A DNA stretch of 64,000 nucleotides, from positions 30,035,041 through 30,099,040 of the forward strand of contig NC_091931.1 in NCBI RefSeq assembly GCF_041260155.1, given 5' to 3'. Below the pieces are notes generated by a model. The model was not told where the DNA came from, searched no databases, and saw nothing but the letters and a program-made list of their open reading frames with translations. Of this stretch, positions 13,546-52,100 are shown piece after piece. Source of the stretch: Ptychodera flava. Taxonomy: Eukaryota; Hemichordata; Enteropneusta; Ptychoderidae. Each line of letters opens with the position of its first letter. The first letter of the stretch is position 1. Both the position numbers and the translations under genes were made by a program.

Positions 13546-13792
13546 GGTATGCACACTGACACAAGGCTTTTTACCCGAGTACTAGTTGGCGTATTCACAG
13601 CTCTACCGTTGGCAGCACCTTTACACCGAATACTAAGATGCTTTACAGTTTTCAAGTTTTTGATGTGGACGGATATACATACATACGTATATATGCTTCT
13701 GACTGACCATGTAAGCTCTATTCGGTATATATACATACCAAATGTAAGCTAAACACATTTATGCTGATTTTCAATAAAGTTGACGTGACTTA

Positions 13793-15921: not shown

Positions 15922-16302
15922 CGTATTCCACATAATACCATTTTATAAAGAAAGAAGAGTTCCTTTGATGCCTTTGTTGTTTCACAAATTTTCACTGAAT
16001 GCTGTAAAATCCATCTGTCATACTTTGATACTATGTATGCAGTACCTGTTTTGAGATCTTTGTTTGTAATTATGTGCAAACTGTGATAAAATTCCATCAT
16101 ATTTGGAAATGAATGCACCTTTTTACTGGCGTTATCTCTTCACTTATGACTTTTCCTTACATGACCAATGAAACCTACTGCCGATTTAAAAAGTACCGGC
16201 AATCAATCACACACAGAGGTCACAGTGGAACTTCCCCAGAAGCATCCACAAAGATATCAGGCGGCCGTACCGTCTGGTGACTGTTACTATTGAAACGTTT
16301 CA

Positions 16303-17967: not shown

Positions 17968-20900
17968 ATGGTCAAGATGGTTTTGATTGTAGTAATCATA
18001 AATGTCCTGCTGCTGGCAGATTTAATATCCGAATCATCATCATCTTCCGACTCTGACAGTTCGCAGGTAAGGAGAAAAGTACGATTTTCCTGTTGTCTTA
18101 GCGACAACAATACTGGTGTTTTTTTTGTGTTTTTTTTTTAAATATTAGGCCTAACACCTAGGGGTGTTTTTCACATTACTTTTTTCAACACATCCAGAAC
18201 TTGGCATTGCCGTTCCACAGTCCTGGAGATCCAGGATCCATTAAGTTGGCAAATCGTTTACCGTACAGGAATAACTGTTCGATCGAGGATGGCGAGCTCA
18301 GATGGTATGAAGACGAAACAAGGGAAGAGGGGAATCGGTGTAGGAAATGTCCCAAATGTAACCCCGGATTTCAACCAAATCAGGTAACTTAAAGCTCTAC
18401 TGTATTATCATTCGAAAACTTTTGTTCTTTTGTCATGCTCTCTTGGACACTATTTGGTAAATTCTATGCACGTTGAGTTGGTGAACAGAGTTCACTTATT
18501 TGACATACACATGTAGAGGTAAACATAACACACCTATCTTCGAGCCTGCAAAATGCGTACAAATAAAACGGTGACGTAGTTTCTGGGTCGTTGCTAGAAG
18601 TACATAGTCATAAGGCAACCCTCTTGACGTGGCCAAGCAAGCAACACTTTAAATTTAGGGTGATACATGTATTTGCTTTACAATATCGTCACGCCCTGTA
18701 TTTGCATAACGCAAACATTTTAGCGCAGGGCAAGCCGTCTAATGATCGATAGTCAGATCTCCTTACCCATTTCTACCGCTGGCTGCGCCGCTAACGAAAA
18801 TAGGGTCAAGTATGGGCTAATGTTTCAGTTGGAATTTTGACTGCATATTAATGATCACGGTTACTTGTCGAGATTCTGTGATCAGCACATCTGTACAGTA
18901 GCAAGGTCGGAAATTTGATGACGAAATGTTGAAGTTGTTTGCTCGGCTTCACTTTTAATGTCTCCTACTCTGTTCTTCTATGATGGTATTTTGTGTTGAA
19001 ATGACGATAGTCGTCTACGATTTTTTTCTCAGACGTGACCTGACGACCATGGTGACCTTTTACATGTACGGCAACGGCTCAAAAATAAATGATATTTAGT
19101 TTTTCATTCAATGCCGACATAGGACGCTTGGTTCGGGAAACTATGCAGGTAAAATTACCCCATGGGCATACGGAAATCTAAATTTGAAGGATGCTCCAAG
19201 TTGGAAATAAATTCAACGCGATCACTGCATCCGTAGTACGACCATGATTATGGTATATGCTATCGAAATTGAGGTTGTGAACAAAACTGGCTATCACGAT
19301 CATGTTTTAGATGGCATGGCTCCCTCAGTGTTGGCGCATGTTTACGTAGGCGGAACGTACTCAGCGACGCCAGGCTCCTGTAAATCATGGTTATAGTTTA
19401 TTGGTACATGTGTTTTCATCAAATTTACATTATGTAATTTTTATTTTACCTATCTGCACGCACTCTAAGATATTCGATAGTGCACCTGTTGTGTTCTGAA
19501 CAAACACGCAAACGTTTTTTTCCATTTTTGGTTAAACCAAGCTACACTAAATTTAATATAGAAGAACCAATTAAACTAACAAATCTTGCGACTTACTTCT
19601 CTCAAAAAGATTGCCGTAAAAATCAAATTTTACTCTCTGAAGCTGTAGAATTTCCGCCGCCGTTTCTGCTTTCAACGCCAACCCATGTGTTGTCCAGCAT
19701 CTGGTAATCACATAAATCAGGCCTTGGGGTATGATTGTTGTGATTGTCAATCATTGTTATTTGACGTATTCGAATGCACGAGGGTCTGTGGGTTGACCTT
19801 GGACTTGAAGAAGTTCTTCCCCTGTTAACAAGGTGTAAAATACAGTTCTGCCTAGCTCATGTCATCGCAAGAAATCTAGCACTTTTCATACTATCTCTGA
19901 AATAAAGGTTCGACGATTTACATGTAACGTTCATTTGCAATTTAGTTTTACCATGGACTATTTTGGTGATGTTTATATCTTTGTTGTGATTATTTACCGT
20001 GATAGGAGTGTGGAAATGGAGTTGGCAAAGGCACAGAGTGCGAGGAATGTCCACCTGGAACGTATTCAGATGAGTTTGGCTATGCACCATGCAAACCCTG
20101 CTCTGTTTCCTGTTCCAACACAATCAATGACACGGATTGTACACGCTTCAGAGATAAACGATGTGGTCCTTGTCAACCGATGTAAGAGACTTCATCATCA
20201 ATTAATATTCTCAAAATAAAAATTATCCACACAAGGCACACACATATATACATGTACACACATGTACATAAAACCTGCAGACATTGCATATAATAGGGCA
20301 TAAGCACACATTTTAAGTGGCACTCTCAACAACACCGTATCTATGGATTTCCACAGTAAAATATTTGTGCAAGAAATTAAGCGTTAGAGCAGTCCATGGA
20401 AGTCTTGTACTGTTTTATAGTTTAAAATTGGCCTATTCTAGAGTGTTCTTGATTCTCGTTGTACTTTGACGTGTGGAGTAGTGCTACAGTTAAAAAACAT
20501 TTTTTTTTGCAATTCATACATACAAATATACTCTTTTGCAAAACTCCCCATGGCTTTAGTATTTCTTAAATTATACGTTATTCCCTTTGAAAAATATGGC
20601 CATAAAATTGTTTACATAATTTTTGGTATAATTTTCAGGTATTTCAAGGATTTCAATGGTAACTGTGAATTCTGTGGTAACTATCGACCTGACGTTGACC
20701 CGGCATGCACGTTGACAAGTACACCAGTAATGCAATTTGAAACCAGCAAATCACCAACTACAAGTGAGCAGACGCCAAAAAAGTTAATTGAAGGAGCGAC
20801 ACCTTTGGCGACATACGGTGTTCCGACCGCTTCCGATGATGCATTGGCCAGCATTACTTCATCGAAAGACTCCAGTACAGTGGGAATATCAGCAGCACCA

Positions 20901-23900
20901 AACCAAACAACAGAAGACGATGCTTTGGACAACGCAGGTGACGTAGTTTTCAATCATAAATTGTTACGATTCGAAAGGATAGTACGCGTTTGATAAACAG
21001 TGAAAATTCCTGTGCTAGATTGATAAAAACTTCTTGCAATTATTTGCGTGTGTGCCCTCAATTCTCTGGTTTATGCAATGTCGATTATGAGACCGCCCTC
21101 TGAACGAGCGAAGTTCACCATATATAATAAAAATAAAATAAAAATATCGGGTGGTCTTCTGAAAGACGGGGAAAGGCCCACACGGTGAACTTTCAGAGAG
21201 GTCAATTTTTCTCACTATCGTGGAAAAAAATTGCAAAGGAAATCAACGTATGACATTCTAACTTGTACATTTATTCAAATACTAAAATTATACCAATTAA
21301 TCAACTTTCAGGAGATATACGTGATGACGCTGATACACGTAACAAGGGAAAATACCATGCAAATATGATGCGCCTTGTAGCCGTGAATGCGGCGTGCGTG
21401 ATCGCAGGTTTACTTCTTTGCTTAATGTGGATAGTGTACTGGAGGTTTATTCATCGAAGATTACGATGTGCCGAGGAACGCCCGAAAGAAATCCACGAGC
21501 TTCGAGAATTGCGAGGTAAATGATGAAAATACAAAAATATAGAAATCCCATTTAATATTTTCCAAAACGAATATACAGATAACATCATAACATTCACAAT
21601 AGATTTACTTGAGTGTTTGAGTAATAACTCAATAGGAACAAGGATCTTTGCCAAATAATGTTAACGTGCTATACATAGCACATCATATTTCAAGCATGTT
21701 CTCTATAGGTAATACCCTCTGCCTGTCACCGGTTTGTTCAAATAAAATGAGTTTCGTGCCAAACAAGGGAACAACGTATATGAATTATGAGATAAATGTT
21801 ATAAGATGATAAAGATGTGAGTGCGAAATGGTTTTTTAAAAAATCAATGTTAACCTACTCCGGTTTAATTCAGAATGCAAGAAATTATCTTGCTTTGTGC
21901 TTGATGTCGGAGTCGTAAAACGTACCATGTCGCCATCGATCCTTTCATAATGATCTCACCTGTCATGTGGGATTGCTCCTAAAGAGAAAACTCCGCAGAA
22001 TAAATTCGATGTAGGAATAAAATTTATGATCTCTGTTTCATGATAAATCACCATTATCAGTTATCAATTAACAAGTTTGTTTCATTTGTTTTTTGTTTTT
22101 TGTTTGCATTCAAAGTTTATCATGAAGCGCTAGCAGGAATCGGCAGATAGTTTTATTTACGGATTTAGAATGCTGCATTGGCATCAAATTGAGATAGATT
22201 TTCCTTTCGTTTCTGTGACCGACATTTTCCCCAGTTGCTAATGATGACCATGATGCAGAAGATTTTGTTGAGATACTGGATGATGCGGAGGCGGCGTCAA
22301 GAAAGAGAAGCCAATGTGCATCAGAAATACCAAATGAAAGGTAACGTGTCCTTTGTAATCGTATTGTACGGTAATGAAAGACACTGTGATCAAAATGGTG
22401 ATTGGAATACGATATTGAACTAATGTACGCATTAGATTCAATTACAAGTTTAACACGATTGGAAGTAATTTGGGATAATTGGATAAGTAATGTCGGTTTA
22501 CTCTACAAACATATTCTCATCTGCTTTTCTTTTTACAGCACACTCTTGTTTTTATGAGTAATTTGCAATATTGCAACATTCAGCTATACGGCACCTAAAA
22601 CTTTTGAGAAATATGAAAAATATGGAAATCCAATTATCCCAAATCAGTTCCAATCGTGATGTTTTATGTAATTTGTTCATTTTATCACGTTATAAGCTTA
22701 CATTCAGCTAAAAAGAGTTCACCTGTTCACCTATCAAGATGGTGCTAATTTTTTAGCTCACGTGTTCACACGTGGGCTAATGTCATAGCGATGTCTGTCT
22801 GTCTGTCCGTGTGTCTGTGTGTGAGTGTGTGTGTGTGGGTGTGTGTGTGTCTCTGTCTGTCTGTCTGTCTGTCTGTTTACACGATAACTCAAAAACGCCT
22901 GAACAGATTCAATTCAGATTTGGTAGACAGGTACCGTATGCTACTTGCAAGAACTGATTAGATTTTGGTTAGTGTGGCTTGCATATTAATGAAGTTATGC
23001 AATATCATTTTTTCCGTACAATGGTTTCCCTACTGCACAAAATTTCATGAAACTTTTCACAGATGACGATCTCAGAACATTATGATGATACTATGAGTGT
23101 CATGTCAATTATCTGCTCATTTGCATATTTAATGAACTTTTGTTATTAGTGACATAACTCTGAAATTCCTGCACCAAACTTGATGATACGTGCAATAAAT
23201 ATTGATCTGATATACATCTAATTATACTTAGAAGCATTGGGCAGTGTCAAGTTAATAAATAGCTCATTTGCATATTTTATGAAGTTTTATGATTAGTCAT
23301 ATAACTCCGATATAACTGCACCAAATTTGATGAATTCTGCTGCAGATACTGATCTGACTGATATCTAACTGTGGTGTAAAGCACTTAGTAGTGTCAAGTT
23401 AATTAAGGGTTCATTTGCATATTTAATGAACTTTGTAATTAGGTATATAACTCTGAAATCACGGCACCCAAGTCAGTGAAATCTGGTACAGATATTGATC
23501 TGATAAATATCTAATTGTACTGACAAGCATTTGGCAGTGTCAAGTTAACAAATAGCTCATTTGCATATTTTATGAAGTTTTGTAATTAGTCATATAACTC
23601 CGAAAAAACTGAATCAAATGTGATGAAATCTGCTGCAGATACCGATCTGACAGATAGCTAATTGTGTTGTAAAGCATTTAGTTGTGTGGAGTTAAGTAAG
23701 GGTTCATTTGCATATTCAATGAACTTTGTAATTAGTGATATTACTCCAAAATTACAGCATTACATTTGATGAAACTTGCTACAGATATTGATCTGATAAA
23801 TATTTAATTGTACTGAGAAGCATTGGGCGTGTCAAATAATAATTAGCTCATTTACATATTACACACGCGTCGTGTGCTCAATTGAACTGCTGTCAGAATA

Positions 23901-25805
23901 TACAATGTCTGCCTTTGTTCTTGTGTTTTGGTTAGTGATTATCCTGAGGTCTGCAAATGTTGCGTAACATCTCCTTGCTCGTTGATTTGTCACTTTGATA
24001 TAAGACAGGTCAAAGGTACAATTGTTTTACACAACTTCATAACAGTCAAAAAGTATGCAGTAATTCATGTCATACTGTATTATTTCATGCGTCCAGTAGT
24101 GTCTGATAAATGTCAATACATGTCGAGTCATCGGCAGTCAATTTCAATGCTTGATAACTAAATTTGTAATTTTGTCAAACTCAAAGTCATTCCTCCCATT
24201 CAGGGGTCACATTAGTAGGTCAAGTTGTTCTGTTGAGTAAATGCTAAAATTTTCTAGTCTGTTACTGACTATTAATGAACCTGTTGTAAAACACGTGAGC
24301 ATATTCAGTTCATATCTGGTTAGAAACGGTAATAGGTCATGCATAATGCTTTTGAATTTTTTTCTATTTTCTTGGTAGATTGTTATAAACATTATTTTTT
24401 CACTTTCATCGATGTGTATAAATGTTTTACATGTAGGGCTATGAACGAAGGTATTGCTGACAACAACATCGGGGAAAATCCTGATCCACTTTGCAGCGAA
24501 CAACTTGACATTATCAACGAAAATCGAGAACAGAATAGACTGGTGAAGATTAAAAGACCATTATTTCCTCGTCATTCGATATCTAGAGAATCTCAACCAG
24601 AAGAAGAAAATCCGCTACTTTCTTGCCAACGTGATACTGGCGATGGAGGCGTGATTCACAACGAGCCGGAGGGGCAGTCGCCAGACAGTGAAAAAGCTTA
24701 TGTAAACATAGCGGTGTCTTCTAGAGGTGCAGCACTCATTCAAACAGCGACAGATGATGAGAATGGTGGCCTTAAACGTAAACCATTACAAACGGAACAT
24801 CCGAAGGTAAAAATTGTCTTCGCTCCATAAACAAATGTGGAATTTGCCAGATATCTTAAAGTTGGTAGGGAAAGCGATTAAGCAGTTGAATCATTTTAAA
24901 TGCCTTAACTTATTTGAAAAATTATATGTAGTAGATTTAGATGATGATACTTGTTTATTGTCAAACATTGAAATGTTAAATCCATACATTTGAGAATAAA
25001 AACACGCATGTCATTTATCAATTAGAATGTGACGATTATAAACATGCAGTTACTGATTAGACAAGCAGAGCAACTAACCGTTCGAAGAGTTTGAAATCGT
25101 CACAGCCTAATTGTAATCGTTTTGACCCTAAATCTTGTAATCATCCCTCGGTTTCACTGTAGATGCGAGCAGAGAGTGGGAAATGTGACATTGACGAAGA
25201 AACAGCGACAATAAGACAAACAGCTAAAATAATCGCAAAAGGTAATGGTTTTCTTGTGTGAAATAATTCATGCAATTAGTGACGTGTGTGCAGCCTTCTT
25301 TTTGATTGGCATTTGCACAACAAGGTTTCGAGATGTAGTTTGTGGTTTATTCGCTCTGTAAGACATTCACCTTACTTATTCATCGTGGCATGTCAGGTTT
25401 AGCAATCTCACTGTTGCAATATCAAACTGACGTATGTAACAAATATAGGTAATTTGATCTCTGACTAATACAAAGATGTTTTTTTGGTTTTACACAGGTA
25501 AGCCTATCGATGACGTACTTGACGACATTCACATCAGAGATACCATCACTGGATTGTTAACAGTACCACCGAACAGCGGCACATCTGAGAAACCCATCAA
25601 GTACTTTCGTGACTTAGCTCTATCGCTGGGTGTAAGTCACATTAGAATAAATGTGTTTGACGGACCCCAGGATGTGCTCAATTATATGAACACCAGCATG
25701 GAGGGAGACCGTGATCAACTTACTCTTATCGAACATCTCGAGAACATTGCAAGATATGACATCATGGATGAGCTCTGCACCTGGATTTTACAAAAATACG
25801 GTTAA
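17968..25805 (+). CDS. Receptor A: EDAR/NGFR-like TNF receptor superfamily protein with death domain
   Basis: Nine coding exons (17968-18066, 18198-18383, 20006-20181, 20639-20937, 21312-21515, 22235-22340, 24437-24806, 25163-25241, 25498-25805) join in frame to 608 residues. Order: signal peptide 1-20 (MVKMVLIVVIINVLLLADLI), cysteine-rich domains about 60-180 with CRKCPKCNPGF and CEECPPGTYSDEFGY motifs, a Thr/Ser-rich stalk, transmembrane helix 275-297, an acidic Ser-rich cytoplasmic linker, and a death domain about 510-606 ending IARYDIMDELCTWILQ. The family binds TNF-type ligands outside the cell and recruits death-domain adaptors inside. Spacing of the cysteines and the C-terminal helix pattern recall EDAR (from memory, not searched). 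XEDAR and TROY lack a death domain, so EDAR or NGFR is the closer model. ATG 17968 was chosen because the hydrophobic leader follows at once. Confidence 0.87.
20999..21260 (+). repeat. Imperfect inverted repeat in receptor A intron 4
   Basis: GACCGCCCTCTGAACG...GTTCACC near 21091 pairs loosely with GGTGAACTTTCAGAGAGGTC near 21184. It may be a decayed MITE; no target duplication was recognised. Confidence 0.35.
22454..22658 (+). mobile_element. 205-bp MITE, copy 1
   Basis: Ends CACGATTGGAAGTAATTTGG and its near reverse complement form TIRs of about 29 bp. The second copy, in opposite orientation, is at 63159-63367. It lies in intron 6 of receptor A, 114 bp after exon 6. No convincing target duplication; no coding capacity. 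Confidence 0.85.
22750..23885 (+). repeat. Complex repeat: AGCTCACGTG head, microsatellite, about 147-bp tandem array
   Basis: A head with AGCTCACGTGTTCACACGTG and GTCATAGCGATG is followed by the microsatellite and then by tandem units anchored by TCATTTGCATATTT at about 23115, 23263, 23411, 23556, 23704 and 23846 (spacings 142-148). Units alternate: one type has TTTTATGAAG, the other TTTAATGAAC. The right edge is near ACACACGCGTCGTGTGCTC. The whole sits in intron 6 of receptor A. Confidence 0.8.
22791..22877 (+). repeat. TG / TCTG microsatellite
   Basis: Pure to near-pure runs of TCTG and TG. It forms the left part of the larger 22750-23885 element. Confidence 0.9.
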
Positions 25806-31050: not shown

Positions 31051-31610
31051 TGCAAGGTATAACCTACATACGTAAAATGGGAATACAATTTTTCTTACAG
31101 AATTTATTGTACACGCACTCTGTCCTATAACATAAGGCCAAAACAAAATATATGTGCCGTTCCGATTACCCGACCTACTTCAATTTTATCCCCCCGACCC
31201 TAGACTTTTTAGAGCTTCCTATATAAGTGGAGTGTGTTTTGCTCAGGGACAAGTAGTTTAAATACATAGATTGTTTTCGTACGAACAAACATGTTAAAGG
31301 CAATTGCAGGCCAGACCAACTCTGTGGTGTTTATTGTATATGTCATTGTGAAAGACTTTTGTGAGGGAGCTAGGGCTGGTACACCTCATATAACTCGCCA
31401 TTTTAATCGAGGGGAAGGCTAGTATCGTAAACAATATTTATATTAGTATAACGGGAAGGTGCCAGTATTTTTCAAGTATCGGATTTTGAAAAGCACAGGC
31501 AATCAGGCTATTAAGTAGGTCTGGATCCTTACAATGACAAAGTCGATAGATAAAGCAAACAGTATAATGCTAAAACAATTCTCATTCACAATTATTTCAT
31601 AGTCATTTAA

Positions 31611-32853
31611 GGCCATCGTCTGGGCTAATGTCGGTCAAAATGCTCAAAAATCAAATTTTATTTTTTCCCTTCATTGTCACCCTCGACATGTATACTTTCA
31701 AATAAGCTATATCATTCTTCAAAAAATATTAACTAAAATCGAGAAAATCGCGTTTTTTCCCACTGACCCCTGGTCAAATATTATTTAGTCTAATTATATA
31801 TTCAAAACAGGTAAATCGCTATTTTTGGTTGCCTAAAAACTTTGTTGAGTTATGGCATCATGTATGAAGTAGTGACTATTTGCTTGCTTATTGAAGCAGC
31901 TTTTTCAGAGGTAAAAATATATGGCGTTGTGGAAATTGTGAGTTTGAGACTAATTGCAGTCTAAAAAAGCCAGATCAATGAGTAATCGGGAAGAAATTTG
32001 CAACAAATGACTCTGTTTTATATTTTGTGTGGATATTACTGTAAGGCATATGAAGATTTTCATTCAGGTATAGCAATTAAACCAGAAAACAAACCATATT
32101 AGACGTTATGGTGTCCATATACATAACAAGTAAAGAATCTCACATGAATTTCATTATCATGCTGATTATAAATCAATGTTTTTTTGATAATTAACAGTTC
32201 ATTTTTCACTTAGAAAGCAATTACAACCAGGCTTTTGTAAATAGAATTCTAGCTGACAATTTAAGCTTGTCGAATACCCTATTTTGAGGTCTTTAACTTT
32301 GCACGAAGTATGATTATCACCTTTATGTTGTAAACATTTCAATCCAATACTCCTAACAATTGTGTTTTTGTACTGCATTCGTTTCTTGTGGCAGTAATAA
32401 CTCTTGAAAGAATGGTTGGAATGCAATGAAAATCAGCTAACATATGTGAAATTAAATACTTTACAAAATAAACCTCAAAAAACAAGGTCATCCAATCATG
32501 TCATAGTAGAAACTTGACGGAAAGTTGTGAAATTTATTATTTTTCAATCTTACCGAGATGACTATGATTTAATTTATATTGACATCTTATACAGTCATAG
32601 ATTTAGGTTCATATTGTAATACATATACATCTGAATGCTACAGAAAAAATTCGGTTGTTGTATGACTTTTCGTTCAATAGATATCTTTGCCACAAATTTC
32701 CTCATATTTTTAACCCTGAAATTGTAGCCATGCCAACCGAATATCCGGTTTTCCCCCTGCACTGCATTTTACCATCTACTGCAACAAAAGATGACAAAAT
32801 CTGAAAACAAGGTACTACACGGTTAGTGTTTTAAAATAGCCCAGACAATAGCC
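31611..32853 (+). mobile_element. 1.24-kb TIR element flanked by TTAA
   Basis: Left end GGCCATCGTCTGGGCTA and right end TAGCCCAGACAATAGCC are inverted repeats (about 15 of 17 match) with TTAA directly outside each (31607-31610, 32854-32857). TTAA flanks suggest piggyBac-type targeting; a TA duplication with slightly longer TIRs is the alternative. No transposase frame was seen, so it is non-autonomous or decayed. Confidence 0.65.
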
Positions 32854-34021
32854 TTAACCTATTTGTTCTATATTTCACCACTTACATAATTTATTAGGAT
32901 CAGTTTGCGTCATGAATCAATTTAGTATTCTTCTTTGTAAGCACGTATAAGCACAGGCTGACGATTAAATACACGGTATCAACAACTGCAATCTCAGCTA
33001 AAAAATCATATTTTTGACTGTTTTACAGATCACACCACACAGTCTAAAGGTTGCTTTTAGTAGAGGCAACACCTTTTAAATTGATCAGTTGCCAGTTAAT
33101 CAGTCGATTGAGGCAACGCCTGGTAAATCCACAAGTTTCATCCGTCCATTGATAGAATGTCTTTTAACTTATTGAATAGTTTATGTCTCACATTCACAAA
33201 ATTTTTACTATGATCCCTTTAGTAGATACGCCCGTTGTATTGTCACACCAAAGTACTGAAATGTGCCAGTGTCCTACTTTCCTTTGTCAGGCTCGTTCAC
33301 TAAAATTCAAACATAAGAGCTGTTTTAATGAATGACCATTACAACAGGAACATTTGAGGGTTATACTGTGTAACAAATCTCGACGAACGGAAGATTGCTT
33401 TCGTGTTTTCGAGTGCTAATGCACTCGATTGCGCGGAAAGCATAGGATCAAACATTTCATCGTTGATTGGGTCACAGTTCATTCACTTGTTTCTTTGATG
33501 ACAAAATCACGCTGTTGTGCACTCATCTCAGAAGACCTTGCAGCGCGTTAGGGAAAGTAATACCTTTGACTTTGAGATTGTACTCACCCATTCAATTCTC
33601 GACACCGTCTGCTAAACGAAAAAAGATATCACAGATGAATAAATTGACCAACGACGCGTATCTTCGTAAGGTCGATACAGGTCAGGTCAACAAATTACGT
33701 ACAACAACTGCTATCATGTACTGTACACGCCCAAGAGATGTCAAGAGATATAGGCTAATGATATGGTTATAATGGTAGGTAAAAATTGATGTGAACTCTG
33801 TACTTCTGAATGTAATCTTTTCACGTGTAAAACACGGAGGGACATCGTAATACATTTTGCAGCTACATATTTGTATTTGTTACATTACGTAACTCTACAC
33901 TTCCAAAGGTGATTTCAAAAATATTGCGAAGTTTCTTATCGTATATGGGTAATCATATATTTATATGTATCCCGAAGGTCGAAGCTCTATCCACTGTGAA
34001 AACTTTGCAAAAGCCCATTTA
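32854..34021. other. Intergenic stretch
   Basis: Nothing beyond a short hairpin CGAGTGCTAATGCACTCG near 33410. An open frame around 33467-33772 has no splice sites or domain that I would trust. Confidence 0.3.
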
Positions 34022-35058
34022 GGCCAGAGAAAAAAAATCTTGTTCATCGGATTTTTTGGACCAAGTCCCAGGAGCGGCGAGCGAAAATTTTTTTTTTTTT
34101 TTATTTTTTTAGGCCGAAGGTAAAATTAAACGCGGTGGCATTTTTGCACAGATGCAGACAAGGCAAGATAATTGTTTCCCTTTTTACCAGAAATATCTCA
34201 GACAAGAAACACTGATGCTGGTAACTGAATTCAATACTATATTTCCCAACAATAACAGGCCATTACATTCACAGTTAAACAACATATTCTGAGCATTTCA
34301 ACATTCTCTCAGATAAAACTGAAATGTACAGCAAATCACTGAAATTCAACAATTCAGTATTGTCCTTTAATATTGTCCTGGTGGGACCTAGCATCTGAGT
34401 TTTTTTCATTTTACTTTGGCCCCATGTTTTGGCCTCTTTACCACTGTCTATATATACACATTTTACATAATGGTCTAACAACACTGTACTGTGATCGGAG
34501 TGAAGTTATATAGTCATCATTCAGATCGTACTTTAACATCGACGCAACCATGTGTTTTGTCATTGCCGTAAATTTTTATACTTTCGATGCAATTTTCATT
34601 CAATCGGATGCACCGTCCATCTGCTGTCACGATCTTGTTGAACAAATCGCCGAACGTAATATCAGGACAAACACTGCACTGAATAGCATCTCTGGAACTA
34701 ACTGTTGGCCATCACGTCGAATGTTGGCGATCAAATTAATACTCATGTGACATGTACTAACCTTTACAAAACGAGCAAATTTCTGGCCAAATCGACCCAC
34801 TTTGCGTCGTGATTCGCCAAATTCAGACGTAACAACAACGTGTTGGCGGTCAACTAAGTCCGAACACGAATGAAGTTTCATTCAGAATCCCGTGCCCGCG
34901 AAAACCCGACACAGTGTAGGGCGCCACCAGCGGCAGTACTAAAACTATTTGTAATGCGGAAGTAAGAATTTGCCTCGATCAAAAAAAAAAAAAAAAATCC
35001 AAATATGCCAAAGTAGAAGCGGCGATTCCGATGAACAATTTATTTTTTCTTCCTGGCC
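34022..35058. mobile_element. 1037-bp TIR element with TTA target duplication, carrying gene exons in antisense
   Basis: Left end GGCCAGAGAAAAAAAATCTT and right end ATTTATTTTTTCTTCCTGGCC are imperfect inverted repeats of about 30 bp including TTGTTCATCGGA / TCCGATGAACAA. TTA lies outside both ends (34019-34021, 35059-35061). The interior holds three consecutive minus-strand exons and a CpG-bearing promoter-like segment instead of a transposase. This is what a gene-capturing (Pack-TIR) element would look like. Confidence 0.7.
34442..34881 (-). CDS. Captured 5' exons of a C4 zinc-binding-type protein gene (partial)
   Basis: Minus-strand exons 34881-34762, 34678-34532 and 34488-34442 have GT-AG borders (GTTAGT, GTACGA, GTAAAG donors) and compatible phases 0, 0, 2. 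They give 104 codons plus two bases. Exon 2 starts CSVCPDITFGDLFNKIVTAD and exon 3 has RPLCKMC, so two C-x2-C pairs are separated by about 52 residues. This resembles the spacing of ZAD-type or other treble-clef modules at the start of zinc-finger proteins, which is an inference. The ATG has a charged, basic N-terminus and no signal peptide. An ACTTCCG (ETS-like) motif lies on the minus strand about 80 bp upstream. No downstream zinc-finger exons follow, so it is a fragment and may be silent. Confidence 0.5.
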
Positions 35059-36182
35059 TTAGAAGTTTTTCATAGCTTATGTTTCGCAGTTGGCAACTAT
35101 TCAAGCGATACTTGTGCGATTCAAATACACTACTATAGGCGTGGTCGAGGGGCAGGGATTCTATCAGCTAAATAACACTGTTGTTATAGACAGCACACTA
35201 AGATCTGCTACTAATATCAGTGGGGAAATCCAAGACTTAAACACAAACTTTAATCCTATTAGATGTTTTGTCAAAGAATAGAACCATTAGTCGTATATGA
35301 CCACGTAGCCGTGACATCATTAATCTTTACACACAACTGTGGACACATAACTCCACACGAACGATTTGGCGGACAACACTTTAACTACCTGTGTTTCAGA
35401 GAGGAACGCGTTCAAAGTAAGTTTGACGTTGAAAAGGCACGCATATTGCATACTTTGTAACCATCGGGAAAAAAGGGTAAGTGGTCAATTATAATATGAT
35501 GAAGTCTTTGCTATTACGCACAAAGCTTTCAAAACTGTGCAATCTGCACAAAGTTAAATCTTGCCGGGAGACAACCAAAAATTCAATCGTTGAGTTGCGA
35601 GATATGGCTGGTTGATTGTTGGGCGTAATGCGTAAAGTGGAGGGAGATAAAATTACAAACACTATGCACGAGTTTTCTTTGAACTTTAAAAGCAGACCTT
35701 CTAGGCAAATTTCAAACATTGATCTTTATGATTTTACATTTAATCTCCTCGGCTAAGATTAAATTGGGATAAATTACCAATTACTTCATTTATTCGAACC
35801 ATTGAGCCTAATCTTTGATATTCTGTTTTACAGGATCCCACCCCAAGAACAAAAAAAAATTCTCCTTGTAAAACAAGCTGACATCATCGCACAATAATAG
35901 TTTTACTTTGATGTTCACAATCATCATGATGTAGGTGTCGAGGCGATTGATCGCAGTTATTTCGTTGATGGTTTCGGTGAAGTTCGCTTCGGGAAAATTT
36001 CAGGTGAGGCCTTTATAAGAGACTATCAGTAAGTCTAGAGGTATTTTTTGTTACACTGATACACGAAGAAAAATATTACTTCTGATATTAACATGATTCC
36101 AGCTTAAACTGTTCTTTAAGACTGAGATCATTGAGTTGCTTGCAGTTTAGGATCATAGAGCGTTGAGGTTATCATTCTACAG
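35059..36182. other. 5' flank of receptor B; signal-peptide exon not found
   Basis: Receptor B exon 2 needs an upstream exon ending in phase 2. No such exon with a hydrophobic leader was recognised here. Short open stretches at 35090-35281 and 35263-35460 lack support. Confidence 0.35.
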
Positions 36183-39100
36183 TCCTATGGAAACCAGCAA
36201 TAAATGTTCCGACCTGGACAATCACTTCAAATGGTATTATGGTGAAGAAAAAGGGTGCAAAAAGTGTCCAGAATGCAACCCCGGATTTCAGCCGAGTCAG
36301 GTTGGTATCACGACTATTTAAATGTTTCTGAGTTGTTGACCGTGGCCTATTTTATTGGCTTTAACGTTGTCCATTTATCCTTGCTTAACCAAATTGGACA
36401 AGAAGTTCACCAAGCCACTGTCCATTATTATAAAATAAATGTGATTAGCCGTATGAAAGTGAAATAAAACGGGGGATTAAGTAGAATGTGAAGAAAATTC
36501 GGACAAATTCTTCATACAAACATGAGGGAAATAAACTTAGGTATGGTTTTCAGCCAGTCGGAAATTGGACTGTTATACTTTTCAGTTGAAAATTTTGTGG
36601 ATGGCTTTTCTTTCTCTCAAATTTCACCCGTTATAGTGTTCACATAATAGTTGACCGACAGTCTCGCTAATATAGCGACCTGAAAAATCACGACATGCGA
36701 GTATTCCATCATATCGATGTATCGTACGATGTAAGCGTCAATCATTTACGTGAAGGTGGCGCGATATGTCTCAAACAAATATTTACATCTTATGGAATGA
36801 ATGAATGAATTAACCACATACCAATGTTACTAACTATCCTTACCACTCCAACCAAACTAAAATTTCTAATCGAAAAATGAACGCCCTCTGCGGTTGAAAC
36901 TGTATAGACGTAGCTCCTGATATAGGTCTTACGCCCAGCCACTATAGTGGCTAAGTACGAAGTACATAAACATGGGCACGAAGTTTATTGTACTTGTACA
37001 AGCCAAGAGAGCTTTCAGTCATCCGTGACTTCTTTGCCTAAAACATCGACGGAGCCAGTGTAGAATATGTACGAAGTCAACGCATAATCTTTTGCCCAGC
37101 GGAACATTCGAGATTTACTGTCATAAGTGCAGCAAATGCCTCAAAATGACACACCTAAAGCTACTGTCGACAATCTACTTGTCATGAGTTGTTATGGCTA
37201 AGCTGGGTCATAGACCCTAAAAATATCTAGGTTCGGCAGGCAAATTCTTTTCATAACCGTATCAAATAAATGACCCCTGCAAAAAATATGCTCCCCCCTC
37301 CTTTAAAGGTACGGAAGCAGCAACTTATCTGCTTCATGTATAAAACCTTTCACACTTTCAAGTCCCAACTGTTTGCTTATCTCGCTCCACTATTCGAAAA
37401 CTGCTTTATCTGATGCTCCCTTCTAACTCAAAGGAGGATTGTCCAGACTGCACAACTTCAAAACCGAGACTAGCAATACATTAGGCTAATCATAACTTAA
37501 ACTTCAATGGACTAACTGAGTGCTCTTCTTCCTTTGTGCGTCCGAGTCGGAATAGCTTAATATCTAGTATTGAAAACTCATTTGAAATGTTCATGCTCTT
37601 TGTATCCCTGTGAACATTTACTGAAAACCATCGCATTTTCCTTCTTGTTCCAGGAGTGTGGGCATGGGACTGGGAAAGGAACGGTGTGTGAAAATTGTCC
37701 AGCCGGAACGTACTCCGACAGTTTTGGTTATTCTCCATGCAGACCATGCTCGGTTGTCTGTGATAATGCTATCAACTACACCGACTGCACGCCTTTCAGC
37801 GATAGAGAATGTGGTCCATGCAAGCCAATGTGAGTATACAAGGTATCATAATAGAGACAACCAGATAACTGGTTTGAGAATTTACAATCAAACAGATGTG
37901 TTATTACAGAAGAATTTTACACAAAATCAAAAGTTTGAGGGGGAAAGTAAAATCTGCTCGAAACTGCCCTGCTGTAATGAATTGAAATGTTGGCACTGCC
38001 GCCAACAAAATTTTGCCTCATCCCGCCAACAGGTCGCGTCTCCTTGCTTGCTCATATGAGAAAATTGCCTACCAAGAAATTGTTTTCGAACACAAACTTA
38101 TGCGACAAAGAGAGGCCATGATAGAGACACAGTGATACCAATTCTTGAAAATTTGAAACGAAAATTATCTATATCTGCAACCATCTTATACATTGAGGGT
38201 GCAATAAGGTGTCGTTATAGGGGGCGCTAGACTCAATTTAAAACACTCCGAGCAACGCTAGACATAAGAGCTATTTCCCTGAAATTGACTATGGTTTCAC
38301 ATAGACAACCCAGTAGTCTGTGAGAAATTTTACAGTCCAATACAAAATGAATGTCAATGAAGGCACAACATCCAGGGCGGAAACATGCGAAAGATGCGAC
38401 CAATGCAGAAGATTAATAGTACTCGGACCAAAGGTGTCCCAATCTCTTTGTTCACCGTTAATTTCTTTGTTCACCTGTTTCACAAACTTGTTTTTCTGAA
38501 AATATACGCTTATTTTTAAATTTACATCCTACACGTCTCTTTGACCCGGTACTGCTCGTAATTTCCTCGCCTACCTAGGCCCAGTATTGTCATGAGTTTT
38601 AAAAAATTCTCCTGTAATTCACTGTTTCACCTATAAGTATCATTGTGTTTCTGCGGCCCTTAATGAAAGCTCAGACCCACAAAACAGTGTTTTATGATGG
38701 TTTTGTGGGTCTGAGATGAAGGTCGTCCGTGTACACAGACGTGTTAGGAAAAATAAACAGTGTATTTGTAAATAGCAGTGAGACTTGTAGGCCAGAGAAT
38801 GCAATTTTGTATGGGCCTACATATAATCAGCATGGTCAGTCAAATTATGCTTCATCCACTGGAAAATCAGACGTCCAGAATTCACATATCTAAGGGTATC
38901 TTTTGAAGGCAAACTCACACCCTTTAAATAGATCCTAATTTTTTGCCGTTTCACCCACAGCATACATCTTCAAGAGTTTCATTGGGAAAGGGTTTGTGAT
39001 CTTGCTAATAAGTATACGCGCACTAGCATTCGGTAAATCACTTATCATTGCTAGGTATTTCAAGGATATGTATGGGAATTGTGAATATTGTGGTAATTAT

Positions 39101-42100
39101 GACCCAGACGTCGATCCTGCATGTTCAGTTACGACAAGTACATCGGAGCTAACTACAGCGCCCTCTACACCTACCCAGAAGTTAGTCACTAATCAATCTA
39201 CAAAGGCAGTAACTACTGTTCAGATGACTACTGAGAAACAGTCAACAGATGCTACACGTGTGATTTTGTTAGAGTCAAACAGAACGACATATTCATCGAC
39301 ACACTCAGTAACAGCAAGTCATACAATATATGAAACATCAGGTAATAAGCTATTCCACCTTCAAACAATCGACTTTGATACCGTTCTACAAGGCAATGTG
39401 GTCTCTGCTCTTTAAGAACTCGGTTGACCGGGTGTATTTCTTCTTACTGAAGCGTTCATATGCCTGTGTCGGATAACTAATTAATGTTAACTTTCATGAC
39501 GTCTTTGCGGAAAGAATATCGTAATTGCAAACAATCTCATTCCATGTATCTACAGAAATCAAAATCTTGACAAACTCATCGTATGCACAATTTGTACCGC
39601 TGTAGAGAAATAAAACACCTTACATTTTACAACACTATACAGATAATTCTTTTACGATTTTTGAATCGTTTTCAGATACAAGGGGAAGGAACATCCACCA
39701 CATCCGCCACTTTGTTGCAACGACCCAAACTGTATTAGTATTGTTTTGTATATTATTTGTGCTTGTTCTGGTTTTGGTGTTCACACTCTTTATACACAAA
39801 TATCGACAGAGTCTGATTATCAGACATAGGCAAAATGACCTGCAGTCAACGATATCTAGTGAAAAAGGTGGGTGTCATGTCTCTAAGATTTAAAATTGGC
39901 TAAAATGTCAGGAAAGGTCAGGAAAAGCTACGCAAGAAGACGTGAAACATATCATTAACAGATTTATTCAATATTCAAATATTGAGGTAAAATATTAAAG
40001 TGTGTTAACAATTTTGTGTTCTTGACTTTTTTCATGTCACAGAAAATGAGGTTTATCGTTCAAACGAATATCCATTTTATATTTCCATTTTCCATTTGTC
40101 ATTTTACTACAAATTAACTGTTTCTGCCGGGCAGAACTTTATATTTCACATAATACTTGGCTGTGACTTTCTGTTAGGGCTTATAGTAAATTCTGAAAGT
40201 TATTTTGAATGAAAATATGCCGGAAATTCAAAACGTTTGTTGTATCGATCTCATTAAGCTTGCAATGATTGCAAAGATGTCCAACGAGGTTTTCACTGGT
40301 TACATTTTGTAGGAGTAGTGAATGGCGACCATCATGACACTGAAGAACTTCCGAGCCATGATCTCTATGAGGTAGATAATTCAACGAAACGTGAACAACA
40401 TGTAGGCCCCCTAATAACAGAAAATGTACACAAGTGTAACAGGTATTTAGTACAGTGTATAAAAAAAATTCCATGATTTATATTGTCTTCGTTACATTTA
40501 TGTCGCCAGATGTGAGGCATAAATAATCAAGGCAACGACGCTGATCTATATTCGTAAAGAATATTTTAACCAACTATACACAGATTTACAGCTTCAAAAA
40601 GACAAAATGACATTCAGTGACGATATGAGACATGCATGTATGCATGGCAAATTTGGGCAAGCTATTGCGATACTTGTGTTATCTTACAGCTTAAAGTCAA
40701 GATTACTTTATTGGGAAAGTGATGTTACAATATACGGCACTTGCATGACTTTAAATCACTGTGTATTATTGCAAGAAATAATTAACTATTAACTGCATTG
40801 TCTTAAACTAGGGTTGAAGAAGTCGCCGAAGAAAGGTTACGAAGTGAGGTTGTTACTGACATCAGCACTCCTGGGAGTCATGATAAAGCAACTTCACTTC
40901 CAGACAATAATGTCTGTGAAGTCATGAATGAGCAGCAACAGCACAAAAGCCCATCAAAGCTAAAGAAAAGAAGAAGCCTGTTTCGCTCTCTGTCTGCAGA
41001 ATCCGACCCAGGAGAAAAAGACCATCTACTCAAACATGGAAGTGACGGTGACATGGTCCCTAAAGGCTTGGGTCAGCAAGGAATTGAGTATCAATCGGCT
41101 GAAAGTGAAACCACTGATGTGAATAATGTTGCATCCTGCAGGGGAGCAGTCCCTATTCAGACTGTTGGACACGGCGTTGATGATAAACATGGACATCGTG
41201 AGCAACAGCCGGAAGAACCAAAGGTAAGCAATAGCAGCTGAGTTAAATAATAACACATGAGAGCGAGGGCAATATCACAATTTATTGCCTGCCCAAGGGA
41301 TGGTGGTCATGATCGAAATACTGATGATGCCCGAGCCGTAGGCGAGGGCATCATCAGTATTTCAATCATGACCACCAGCCCGAGGGCAGGCAAAAAATCG
41401 TGATATTGCACAGGGGCTTATGTGTTATTATTTTTATTACACCGAACAAGCAAACATGTAAAGAAACAAAAACACAAAGACTTCTTCGAGTACAGTTCGC
41501 CTTCTGAGTCCGGACCTCAGCGTAAAATGTTGTCAGTGCCGAGCCTAGGGTTGCCGCTAAAGTTTGCCGATCTCCTCGGTGGCGTATCCAAATTTGTTGC
41601 TTGCATAGTCGCTGAACACAGAAATTGCATTCCTTGTTGCCATTTTCGTTCGTTTGCTGTTTACTTGCATCAAAATATCGTCTAACTGTGCCGGTGACAG
41701 CTCTGCATGACGTATCGCAGCCATAAGTTGCGAACTGCAAAGTACAACAAGCGAACGACAATTTGTTTTGCGCAGAAAGGATGCGCAGTAAGTAAAATGA
41801 CGTCATCCATGTAATATCAAATGCAGAGGGCATCATCAAGTTCGCAGAGGGCATCATCACATTCGCAGAGGGCATCATCACGTTCTTTTACATGTCACGT
41901 GAGTCGTGTTTAACCAATGGCAGTGCACGCTGAATGAGTGAGGTGTAATAATAAGCAATAGTAGCTGAGTAGATACTTCATACTGCCAACCATAACACCT
42001 GTTAAGTCATTATAACTTAAGGTACCATATTTGCGTCAAAGTCAATTTTTGTCACCTATATAGAAAATAACTCAGACATTGTTTTTCAGGTTCGAACAAT

Positions 42101-43509
42101 TTTTTTCAGATTTTCCTAAAATTTTGATCAAAAAGCGTGGCCTATGAAAAATGCTGCTCATTTAGTCTAAAATAAAAAAGGATTACAGAAAAAATCTATA
42201 TAAGAGGTAAAATGTTGCACAAAAACTTTGGCGGAAAATTACAGCATTCAAAGGGTTAATAATCAACACTTTAGAGTAACCTTTGTTTTTCTCTTCATAT
42301 AAATACTTTAGTAAAAAATAGTGTCTTTTTCAATCTTTCAATGTGGCACAAGGGGTAAATTCACTGAATATTCTTTATCGACCCATGATTGTTACTCTGT
42401 AAAAATGTCAAAAACTATGACATAAGTCTACTCATAGACTTAGGTGCTGGTCTGCTACCTATGACTTAGCACAAAGAGCAAAATAATTAGAAGCAAAGGT
42501 AATTCAACGCAGATCTCTATATGGGCAAATGCTAATCTAGCTTGGTTTATAAATGCTAATCTAGCTTGGTTTATGCAGATGCAGATTAACGAAAACAGTA
42601 TTAGGTGTAATAGTGACCAGGAATGGATAAGAAAACATGAAGAATCTCTAAACTTGGCAAAAGGTAATGATTGAATTTTGTCATTTCCTCACGGTAACCA
42701 CAAGCTCATCGGAATGGAATATGATTAATGACATTTAGGATTTAGTGTATACAAATTAGGTATTACTAATCAAACTTCTACCAACAGAGGGTACCAGCAG
42801 GATTACCAGTACCATAAGTAATACGCGTAAGCTTAATCCTAATCTACTCTTGGAATTGACGTCGACCAAGTCATTACTGAACTTTGGGAACCACTTTCTA
42901 CCAGAATCACAATGTATATTTACTGCCTCGTGCTTACAAGTATTTGTGTGTTAGCTGTATTATGTTTAGCATGAATATTTTGATTTGATTTGATTTTCTG
43001 ACTGAACACTCAAGTAGAGTTTGACGAAGAACTTAGTTTTTATACCATTCTGTACTTACAGGAGACTCTTTCACACTAACCTAATAATTTAGTAATATCG
43101 CCTGAAATTCACTTTTGATTGGATCTTCGGATAAAAGGTGATTTTGTTTTCTTGATTGAACAGACATACCTATTTCTAAATTGCTTGATGATATGACCAT
43201 GAGAGATAACGTCGTTGAAGCGTTGACTATGCCACCGAACAGAAAAACAGACAGTACACCCGTCAAGTACTATCAGGACTTGGCGATGTCCTTGGTATAA
43301 GTCATACCAAATCAAATATGTTTAAGGAAGCTCTTGACGTACTGGTATTTATAAACACCAGCATCAGTGGAAAGCGTGACATACTTACACTGATCCAACA
43401 TCTCAGGAACATTGCAAGGTTTGATATTATTGACAAACTGTGCTCTTGGATTTCACGAAAACATGACTCATGTGTCACACTTCAAAGGCACACACCAAAG
43501 AACGCCTAA
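36183..43509 (+). CDS. Receptor B: TNF receptor paralogue with disrupted death-domain exon
   Basis: Exons 36183-36300, 37654-37829, 39055-39341, 39676-39867, 40313-40442, 40812-41223, 42579-42663 and 43164-43509 parallel receptor A in order and phase. Cysteine-rich motifs include CKKCPECNPGFQPSQ and CENCPAGTYSDSFGY. The stalk is Thr-rich, followed by a very hydrophobic helix (TVLVLFCILFVLVLVLVFTLF) and a linker with RSLFRSLSAESDPGE. Two problems. No signal-peptide exon was found; if translation began at ATG 36187 the protein would lack a leader. In the last exon, one base is missing relative to receptor A in the ...SLG(V/I)SH... codons near 43295, so the frame meets TAA at 43298-43300 early in the death domain. 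Beyond it the other frame reads on through NTSISGKRDILTLIQ and IARFDIIDKLCSWI to a stop at 43507. It is either a recent pseudogene, a truncated decoy-type receptor or a sequence error. The first donor (GTTGGT) is weak. Confidence 0.72.
38670..38715. repeat. 16-bp-arm perfect hairpin in receptor B intron 3
   Basis: CTCAGACCCACAAAAC and GTTTTGTGGGTCTGAG are exact inverted repeats around a 14-nt loop. It may be another miniature hairpin insertion like 15878-15914. Confidence 0.7.
41225..41970. mobile_element. 708-bp hairpin-bearing element between 19-bp direct repeats
   Basis: TAAGCAATAG(C/T)AGCTGAGT occurs at 41225-41243 and 41952-41970. Between them lies a long hairpin (about 41248-41328 with 41352-41437, containing GATGATGCCC / GGGCATCATC) and an A+T-bounded tail. 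The left direct repeat begins one base after the GT donor of receptor B exon 7 starts, so the insertion is at the very start of the intron. No coding capacity. Confidence 0.65.
41823..41885 (+). repeat. 21-bp minisatellite, three copies
   Basis: GCAGAGGGCATCATCA recurs at 41823, 41844 and 41865. The same GGGCATCATCA core occurs in the nearby hairpin, so the array may have grown from it. Confidence 0.85.
42018..42258 (+). repeat. Dispersed repeat, copy 1
   Basis: Blocks CAAAGTCAATTTTTGTC, TTTTTTTCAGA, TTACAGAAAAAAT and CAAAGGGTTAA match 45407-45638 in order. Lies in receptor B intron 7. Confidence 0.6.
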
Positions 43510-45638: not shown

Positions 45639-46168
45639 AGAGAATGGAGGCACGAATTGATCATGGAAATTTGGTTTTTATTTTGCAAAAGCCTTGCCTG
45701 GATATTTTCTAAAGGTAAAACCATCATTGACTTTAATGCGGAATTTTCTGTGAACAGAGTAAATCACGTAAAAAGATTGGGAGTTCTCGTGAAACAAATC
45801 CTTAAGATTTTCAGTCTCATTTCTTTGCTATAATATTTGTGTTTTTTAAACGCAATACTCAGAATTTTATCCAAGTCCATGCTGAATGAACCCCCATCGT
45901 TTCCGACATAAGAAACAGTCTTGGTTACACTTTCGGAATCCATGGCAAAACTCTGGCAACTCCAATGTATCCCACACTGGCAACTCCATGCACCTGTGGT
46001 ATATTGCAAAACATAATCGAGAACCTCGGTGTGCTTGCCTCGATCACACTATACATACAGTTATCATATCGTGAGTAGATTCAATGTGCTCAATGAAAAA
46101 TGTGCATGCCAAGGTAAGGTCGATGGAATTCGGACGTCGAGTCTCACCCAGTCAGCTAGCCCAGCTTA

Positions 46169-47819
46169 GGCTGCGTTCACAAATAATGATGGGGGGCCTG
46201 GAGAATCGCGATTGAAATCTGGGTTTTTTCTAGATCCCCCCTCAATACCCTAAAAAATTCAAATGCCCCCTCTATATGATCAAAATTTTTCAAGTCCCCC
46301 AAACTATCACAAGCCCGCATATTTGTAAAGGATGTATGCGCAGAAAAAATAAACACGTATTGCGCCGTTCCGCTCGCAGGTGTTCAACACTACCTGTTAT
46401 TAGCAGTTTGTAAAGTAATATTCCTAAGGCAAGTTCTTAAATTGATTCATTTTAAACGCATCGGTGAACTTTTTGGATTTATCGGTCTAAGCCAACTTGA
46501 GTTAATCCAACTCTGGCCAGGTCAATTGCTCCTGCCGAAGAGCACACAAAATGACGATCATGAGAGAGTAGGCAAATTGTGAATTCTGGCTAATTGCCAC
46601 ATTGTAAAAAAACTGAGCACAGTGACCTACCAAAAATTTGTTTCAAAAGTACAAGACATATATGAATTAGATGCTACTCAAAATTGACAATACTGGAAGG
46701 TTAAAATATTCCATCAGATAAATGTTTTAATCTCTGAAATTTTGGGTGTAATAATGGCAAATTTAGTCCCATATTTTTTCATTTAGTCTTTACTATTCAA
46801 AGTTTTACTTTTGTATTATTTTATGACAAGAATGTGAAAATTTAGAAAATCAAGCGTGTTGATCCCATTTTTTTTCTTTATTTGATGATATTTGATGATA
46901 GTCATATGCCGGAATTCAAACATTCCGACAATTTTTATTAAAGTCTCCTTGTCTTCCATGTGTTACTCTGAGACTCTGGCCTGATCTTTTGTACAAGTAT
47001 GTTTCACTGTCATGAGCGTCATTTGACCCAAACTCTTTCTTCAACTACCATGTACATCAGGGTCAGAGCTATCTCTGTCACTGCTTAGGTGTGCAGTGGA
47101 CAGTGACACTGCAGTAGCAGGGCTGTACCTCATAGTGACACTGCCCGTAGGGAGTAGCTGATGATGATGATTTTGGCAATATTTTTTTCAGTTTAAACAA
47201 CTGTGTTCTTGTTCTACTCCCCACAGCATGTTGAACTGTCCAGTATTCAGCTTGCTGTCACAGCCTGTGTATGTATAGCCTACCATGCATTTTTATTACT
47301 GACAACTGGCTGTCAGTCTGGACTATAATTAAATTATCACCTAATATTTATATATACAGGCTTTGTCGACGAACTGAATATTGTGTGTTTGAGCATGCTG
47401 TAGGGATGCAGCAAGAAACTGTAGTTGATATATTGCACAGAAATATTGCAAAAATCATCAACATTTGCAGCTTCTGCCCTGTTACTAGGCTCAAGTTTGC
47501 TTTTTTACAACAAATCACACGTTTAGATTTTTTAGAGATAAACGTAATGAAATATGGCAAAATGGTTCTAGATTTTTAAAATTATTACTAACAATACAAC
47601 AATCGGATGACATAAATATGGTATTCGTTTTTCATTGAATTACCTACAAAAACTTGGAGTTGGAAAATATACAACATAAAACTGAGGGAAAAAATTTTCA
47701 AGTCCCCCCTACAGGTAGATCAAAATTTTCAAGTTCCCGCCCCTACTACCCCAAATATTTTCGAATCCCTCTGAATTGCAACAACCCCCTCCCCTAATCA
47801 TTTTTTTGTGAACGCAGCC
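46169..47819. mobile_element. 1651-bp TIR element with TTA target duplication
   Basis: Left end GGCTGCGTTCACAAATAATG and right end CATTTTTTTGTGAACGCAGCC are inverted repeats, flanked by TTA at 46166-46168 and 47820-47822. Subterminal regions mirror each other (CCCCC-rich, with AAATTTTTCAAGTCCCC-type blocks). No transposase frame was found, so it is non-autonomous. Confidence 0.85.
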
Positions 47820-48140
47820 TTACCGTGCTGTGTGTTCCAGGCGCTATGGAGGCCGTATAACGACGGGAACAAACAGCACGGGACGCTCGGCTACACAGTC
47901 AACTATATAGGCTGGGTTTGTAAAAATTACAAACTACCTCAAAAGAGGACCTCAAAAGAGGGATAAAACTGCAGCAAGTGTAAATGAATACAAGCGGGAA
48001 ATACAATACTTGTGAAGATAAAAACTGCAATAGTTAAAACAAATACAGTAAAATACTAACCGACCAGCGGGAAATAAAACACTTGCAAAGTGTTTTATAC
48101 TCCTGCAGGTAGGCGATAGTTTGCACGACTTGTAAACAAA

Positions 48141-49169: not shown

Positions 49170-52100
49170 ATGACGTATCCACCTGCCATCAAGGTTTATC
49201 AAGGATTCTTATTGTCATTACTTCTGGCTGGGATTTTCACAAAGGTAATACTAATTTGACCATGCATATTTGATAATAAAGTGCAAGTAATGCTAACTTT
49301 GGTTGATTTTTTCGCTATTTTAGTTTTTGATGTCAAGGAAAAAAAAAAAAAAAAAAAAAGATGTTAAATTCTTGTTCTTCTCCACAAAGCATACGTTGAA
49401 ATACACAGTATTTAGCCCGTCAACCCAAACTGTATATGTGTAAACTGTGTTGCTATTGTTGACAAGTGAATTATCTGGTCTGGACTAGTATAGAATTACA
49501 GGATTAACAGTGCATTTTTCACGTATAGATGTAATGTTGACAAGCTAAATAGTGGATATTTCAACATTTTCATGAGAGTAGAATGAGAACTTTCAATTGG
49601 CATATGAAATAAAAATAGTGAAAAAATCATGAAAGGTTAGCATTACTGGCCCTTCTGACCAGTAATTATAATTTTTGATAATTATTTTGCCATATTTGTT
49701 TTGAATGTCAGCCATAATTCCTTGTTATTATTCCCCAAGGAATGTTAATATACACAGTTTTCATCTTGTCAAGTCAGTGTATGTGTGCAATCTACATTGT
49801 CATTGTTGAAAGTGAATTCTAGTCTAGACAAGAATTAAAATGTAAACAATAACAATGTGTTTTACTCATATAGATGCTACGTTGACAAGCTTAATGGTGG
49901 CATTGTTTCAACATTCTTCTGGGAGTAGAATAAGAAGTTGCGGTTGACATATAAAATAAAAATAAAGGAAAAAATCATCAAAAGTTAGCATTACTGGTCC
50001 TTTGATCATTATCATACAGTACGTTTTCAAAGGATAATCACTTATTTTCAAGACTCATCAAATTGCAAGACCACAGCTCTCTAAGCTGATGGACCGGATT
50101 ATTTTTATCTTAATTCATAGATGCCTGAATTAGCAGCAAAAGTAATTCCAACCAAAGAGAAACCGATAAAAACCTCTTCATTTAATAACGCATCCTGTGT
50201 CATTCTCAATGAGTGAATGTTTCAAAATTTGATATTTTGATATAATTTAATGTATCATACCAGTATATGAAAGGCATAAAAACAGAAATCTGCAGACTTG
50301 AAAATAATGGGCTAAATTCGCAATATAGCATTGTTTGAACACACATGAGCTCTCATCTGGAGAAAATCCCTTGTTTGACATTCCTCGCCAGAATTTAAAA
50401 TAATATGGTGACAATAAGCAAGCTGGGTGACGGGTATACAGTGAGATTTTGACCAGTTCACTTCATGCACTCTGGCTTGTGCGTATTTGTTGTGGACTGC
50501 AAAAATCTCAGAGTTACCCTTTACCGAGCTGGTTAATCCTCTTTCTACCAGGCTCCATAGACAAAGCACAGAAATAAACACAACTTGGGAGAAAGAGGAT
50601 TGCTTAAATATGGTTTTCATCAAAAGTACAGCAGGACTACTCTGTGAAATTAAGCATTGTATATTTGTTCTAAACATTACCTTTGATATCTAGATACAGT
50701 CTGTCACTACCCCTCAAAGATGTAGCGATGATGGAGATTATAAACAGTACTGGGATGAGGTCGGGGGAACGTGCAAGCACTGCAACAAATGCAATGCTGG
50801 ATTTGGTCTGAATAAAGTATGTAGTTTATATTGAATTTTTTGTGACACCTATGGGCTACTAGTACTACTGATACAACATAGATATCTGGGATGATGTTCT
50901 ATCCGTGTAGTTGTAACAGTTCTTTATGTTTTTATCCTAAATGCTGTTGCTGTCATGATCATCCCTATCCATTCCATGTTTTATTTGTAATGTACTATAA
51001 ATATACTCCCAGTCCCTGCCAGTGCTTGTCAAGTATTAGATAAATAATTAGAATATACATACTACTTATATTTTGTATTCTCATAAAGAGTATCTCTCAT
51101 CGCTGTTTCTCTGGTATACATTAACGTATTTCAGTTGTCACAGTTTGTAATTTAACCGTTATTAGTTCATTCTCCAAATCTTATGAATCCTCAAACATTC
51201 TGGCAAAATATCACAATATGTAGTTTCAAGAATTCAAAACCCCAAAAGAATCTCTGAATTATCCTCGGTGTTGCTCATTTAGTGGTTTAGTCCTGTTCCT
51301 ACAGAACATTAGTTCACTTCAAGTCACATTTCTATGTTTCTATGTAATACAGTTCCTTCATAGATGTGTTTCTTTTACTTTTGTGTCATTCTCTTTAGCT
51401 GTGTGGTGATGGAGAGGGCAAAGGTACCATTTGCGTGGATTGTCCTGCCAGCTATTTCTCCGATGACTGGAATCATGACGTTTGCAAGAAATGTCGAATC
51501 TGCGAGAATGTAGAAAGTGTCTACAAAGAATGCACTGCAAAGCATGACAGGGAATGTGGAAAATGCAAAGATGGGTATGTGCATTTTTGTTATTAAATTC
51601 ATAACTGTGATATTCTACAAATGTAAGCTTCTCTTGCTCTGAAATCGTTTTGAATACCCAAGTCGTCATGTTTGCGCAAGCTCTGTTTGCATACAGGCTT
51701 TATCGTAATTACTTGTTGAGCAACCTGATTGTCATCAATATAAGGTTGTTGAATGTACGAAGAAAGCAAAAGCACTAAACTTGAGAAATCATGATAATTA
51801 CAACTATGAAAGCAAATACGTTAAAAACGAGTTTTTCAAACTTTGTTTGTATGTTGCTATTGTTGCTGATATTTTAGCTTTAACACTAGGGAGGGACCCA
51901 TAATGACAAAATTAGAGTTTACATCACAGTTTTCCTTGTCATGAATTGGTAATAGGATCTTATACAATATGGTGGACTGTAAGGTTTGTTTACCCATAAT
52001 GCTATAGTCGCACCTTTACCAGTAACTGAGCATACAGAGTGAAATTGTTTATGATCTTTTCTATCCTCTAGTTTTTACAAACACATTCATGGCACGTGTG

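Follow-up and report, generated by a model that had tools for sequence, protein, structure and literature searches.

A genuine and ordinary non-autonomous transposon is located at positions 34019–35061 of the analysed window, a stretch of 64,000 nt from Ptychodera flava (contig NC_091931.1, positions 30,035,041 to 30,099,040). The explanation we favour, with some confidence though well short of certainty, is a cut-and-paste element mobilised in trans by a PHIS-type transposase, the interior of which probably encodes no working protein. The element is about 1.04 kb long and is bounded by terminal inverted repeats (TIRs) of 30 nt at the left end (34022–34051, plus strand) and 32 nt at the right end (35027–35058, minus strand), each abutting a copy of the target site TTA (34019–34021 and 35059–35061). 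The TIRs are imperfect, with identical bases in 27 of 32 columns of the left–right alignment, and both carry GGCCAG at the tip and share an exact inner block of 12 nt. Each end shows the same layout of TIR, short spacer and T tract: the T-rich tract within the left end (34088–34110) is mirrored by an A tract at 34981–34997, which is a T tract reading inward from the right end. Between the ends lies an interior of about 860 nt (34113–34972).

The window was scanned for every TTA...TTA or TAA...TAA pair at a spacing of 150–3000 bases in which 5 or more of the 6 tip bases matched. Among the 1314 pairs that passed this filter the focal element ranked second, with a score of 21, while the best score in 30 dinucleotide-shuffled windows was 16. 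With a score beyond all shuffles and largely identical TIR columns, the TTA-flanked TIR element that had been proposed in the sequence-only reading is upheld. Matches to its ends elsewhere in the window, which might represent sister copies, did not exceed chance expectation, and two exact end patterns were not found in viral contigs.

The ends and the target site agree with the PHIS superfamily (PIF/Harbinger or NuwaII), a placement assigned by the ends alone, and the element may also belong to another superfamily with 3-bp duplications. For PIF/Harbinger, the sections of PMC4482050 used here describe a TWA target, TIRs of which about 93% are shorter than 60 bp, and a first TIR base that is usually A or G; the focal element has TTA on both sides and short TIRs that begin with G. 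For NuwaII, the same sections give a TNA target, preferably C-TNA-G, and TIRs of 13–46 bp, most of which start with GG. The focal TTA, the initial GG and the G following the target agree with this pattern, whereas the preceding base is T instead of the preferred C (T-TTA-G). Non-autonomous PIF/Harbinger and NuwaII elements resemble the focal element in the TTA duplication, the short TIR starting with GG, the length of about 1 kb and the lack of a recognised transposase, but the focal ends are imperfect.

The absence of a recognisable transposase, likewise noted from the sequence, was confirmed for 31 of the 33 open frames that overlap the element and span 25 or more codons: none gave a Pfam family above cut-off. 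The two frames outside this comparison just touch the left edge and span the right edge of the element, respectively, and the frame 34517–34711 entered it as 61 of its 64 residues. The element would thus depend on proteins supplied in trans. Most likely, a PHIS-type transposase (PIF/Harbinger or NuwaII) would have bound the ends of about 30 nt, cut at them and inserted the element into a TTA, thereby duplicating it. No transposase is recognised in the interior, which today probably does not encode a working protein either.

The sequence-only reading had gone further and proposed that the element captured a promoter and three exons of a zinc-binding gene. Such a Pack-TIR would have acquired, via gap repair or template switching, a minus-strand copy of the 5' end of a host gene comprising promoter, ATG exon and C-x2-C exon. 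This would be compatible with a non-autonomous transposon provided that the copy has ceased to work as a gene; we consider such a capture possible but rather doubtful. As expected for a Pack-TIR, the interior is flanked by both ends of one TIR element. The proposed ATG exon with a GT donor could be located on the minus strand at 34881–34762 (40 codons). Its donor AAG/GTTAGT scores 3.7, a strength reached by 1.2% of the 7552 GTs in the window, which speaks for capture. However, the ATG frame is open without an intron as well (84 codons, 34881–34630), and shuffling the element 500 times gave an ATG frame of at least this length, on either strand, in 125 cases. A C-x2-C frame opens at 34678 in phase 0 with exon 1 and ends at 34520, giving a possible second exon of 53 codons (34678–34517, minus strand) with one C-x2-C and a stop codon at 34519–34517. 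Its acceptor is weak, with an ordinary score of -3.0 that 39% of AGs attain. The third exon, for which no coordinates had been given, is not supported: 34474–34438 (minus strand) is one layout with a C-x2-C and phases 0/0/2, and this exon needs a donor at 34613 scoring 0.0 and an acceptor scoring -3.0.

A model of two exons is nevertheless rarer than chance would predict. The layout required was an ATG exon of 30 or more codons, a donor of at least 3.5 and, in matching phase, a C-x2-C exon of 40 or more codons. It was found in 3 of 400 shuffles and, among 278 equally long non-coding strand-stretches, in 2, figures that flatter the model, since the thresholds were chosen post hoc with the model in view, acceptor strength was ignored and the 278 stretches overlap one another. 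Stricter minimum lengths of 40 and 50 codons were reached in 1 of 300 shuffles, and of 35 and 50 codons in 0 of 300. Codon usage is less favourable to capture. Exon 1 scores -6.3, which 37% of the non-coding open frames (n = 1527) match or exceed, and exon 2 scores 0.0, which 6% of 724 match or exceed. Compared with the training 120-mers, scored in-sample (5th percentile -0.08, median 10.2), exon 1 lies below the 5th percentile and exon 2 about level with it. The training set comprised 1636 codons from exons and long open frames of the window, picked by similarity or length, and about 28% of it stems from a single frame (1226–2623) without Pfam match. On the basis of these two comparisons, exon 1 looks like non-coding DNA and exon 2 is intermediate. 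The exon 2 score, which beats 94% of non-coding frames, and the rarity of the two-exon layout are the observations that stand against a mere filler interior.

The interior is further divided by a sharp step in CpG content. The part at 34113–34500 is CpG-poor, with 4 CpG in 388 nt (o/e 0.32), while the part at 34501–34972, which covers the supposed promoter and exons of the minus strand, contains 31 CpG in 472 nt (o/e 1.45). Such a step would be expected at the 5' end of a gene in an animal whose methylation is mosaic. Within a scan in steps of 20 bases, 34781–34980 reaches 17 CpG per 200 bases, the highest count of the window jointly with the segment at 62801. Upstream of the ATG, on the minus strand, lies the 7-mer ACTTCCG (34957–34963), which had been named ETS-like. 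The CpG-rich upstream segment and the 7-mer of the sequence-only reading are present, but ACTTCCG occurs five times in the window, counting both orientations, and CpG-rich stretches are found elsewhere, for example 14 CpG per 200 bases at 13981, inside another TIR element. By its composition only, the segment 34501–34972 appears promoter-like.

Comparison of the interior peptides with Pfam, NCBIfam and PDB sequences revealed nothing above curated cut-offs, which weighs against capture. The top Pfam match of the three-exon model was Cmr2_Zn-bd with 13.8 bits (E 0.062, cut-off 27), and weak PDB matches were obtained with CRP2 (E 0.22), a LIM protein, and 1ibi (E 0.62). Although the CRP2 match would suit a captured zinc-binding gene, we take all three as chance, with less assurance than for the other sub-threshold matches. 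As to the zinc-binding label, one C-x2-C is present in the frame of exon 2, but all family matches are sub-threshold and the second C-x2-C can be reached solely via weak splice sites. A ZAD-like domain was also considered for the C-x2-C frame and dropped, as no ZAD match appeared in Pfam. For a 60-residue piece of the exon 2 frame, AlphaFold run without alignment yielded a mean pLDDT of 50.4. Other matches were likewise attributed to chance, namely CoV_S1_C (E 0.2, sub-threshold, interior frame against Pfam), Macoilin (E 0.013, 14.5 bits against a cut-off of 32, in a frame running out of the element) and 14 protein-kinase matches (E 1 to 1.7, from a search up to E 10 with one mistyped residue in the query). 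A PDB match to Crov588, with E values from 6.4e-10 to about 3e-15, sums many weak repeats of a repetitive chain; in all three comparisons, 0 stretches passed alone, and the match was rejected.

Taken together, the proposed capture is only partly supported, with the two-exon model and the CpG step on one side and the weak coding signal and the weak splice sites of the third exon on the other. The idea stays under consideration, given how seldom the two-exon model arises by chance and that a gene start would show such a CpG step. No relative was detected in one scan of viral contigs and one of prokaryote genomes, neither of them an animal genome collection, and comparison with the rest of the window returned just A/T-tract and other DNA matches of up to 32 nt.

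The interior could instead be the element's own, left over from a longer autonomous parent after internal deletion, so that the promoter and part of the parent's second, DNA-binding protein gene remain. We regard this origin as unlikely, even though internal deletion is a usual source of non-autonomous TIR elements. The sections of PMC4482050 cited above describe a second gene of the Myb/SANT type in most autonomous NuwaII elements, but no Myb/SANT or transposase match was obtained in the frames tested. That no transposon exists here and the inverted ends and TTA copies arose by chance is scarcely credible: A and T tracts do inflate inverted-repeat scores, but the focal score exceeded those of all 30 shuffles, and the ends have in common the GGCCAG tips as well as a 12-nt block, identical in both, which is neither an A nor a T tract.

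The element is situated in a window of eukaryotic appearance, in which introns interrupt TNF-receptor-like exons. The next recognised gene to its right is TNF-receptor-like and on the plus strand; the first exon recognised for this gene follows about 1.1 kb downstream of the element, which itself overlaps no recognised exon. This first exon, at about 36163–36318, has no Pfam match of its own but resembles two others in the window, among the matches listed, and a TNFR_c6 domain was detected in 37561–37830 (E 6.4e-7, Pfam), with TNFRSF16 as best PDB relatives. A simple scan of 31500–36180 did not find a signal-peptide exon of this gene, and the element may occupy either the promoter or an intron of the gene. 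A tandem array on the plus strand comprises at least three TNF-receptor-like genes (18201–25799, 36151–43506 and 50667–55663). A weak death-domain match at 25578–25799 (E 0.089) is below cut-off. Tandemly repeated units of about 147 bp extend over 22992–23828. It is conceivable, but in our view improbable, that a PHIS-type element took up the CpG-island promoter and first exons of a small zinc-binding gene, now antisense upstream of the TNF-receptor-like gene, and that transcription from the promoter it brought along could proceed away from the receptor gene.

Further TIR elements were observed in the window. The first-ranked pair of the scan (score 31) is a TTA-flanked element at 13790–14729 with near-perfect ends (GGGACCGTTCAGTTTTTACGGCCGG...) and an interior of tandem units of about 140 bp. 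The third-ranked pair (score 19), at 46166–47822, is also flanked by TTA, has ends starting GGCTGCGTTCACAAA... and C/G-rich subterminal stretches, and its longest stop-to-stop frame comprises 114 aa. The ends of both differ from those of the focal element. A possible further element at 16300–16903 combines GGGACCGTTCA ends with TCA/TTA flanks; a counterpart of the left end lies at 11953, within a duplicated stretch close by.

The sequence-only reading had described gene capture as best known from plant Pack elements and less often reported in animals. For animals it is documented by 370 Pack-TIRs from 100 genomes (PMC8277862), which are mostly single-copy and attributed in that study to gap filling. 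The focal element resembles them as a TIR element with a non-TE-looking interior and falls inside their search range of 100–5000 bp, but 323 of the 370 are hAT or TcMariner, whereas the focal element is PHIS-like by its ends. An earlier animal case, Turmoil-1 of C. elegans, is reported in PMC2572040 as a TIR transposon with host coding pieces; these derive from rsp-2 and cpg-3 and, in contrast to the focal arrangement, lie within the inverted repeats. Our literature searches found no report of the focal element, from which we do not claim that none exists. Were capture to be shown, the animal Pack-TIRs would gain a promoter-bearing and probably PHIS-type example; for now, the element counts as one of the TTA-flanked transposons, at least three in number, that this window of the P. 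flava genome contains.
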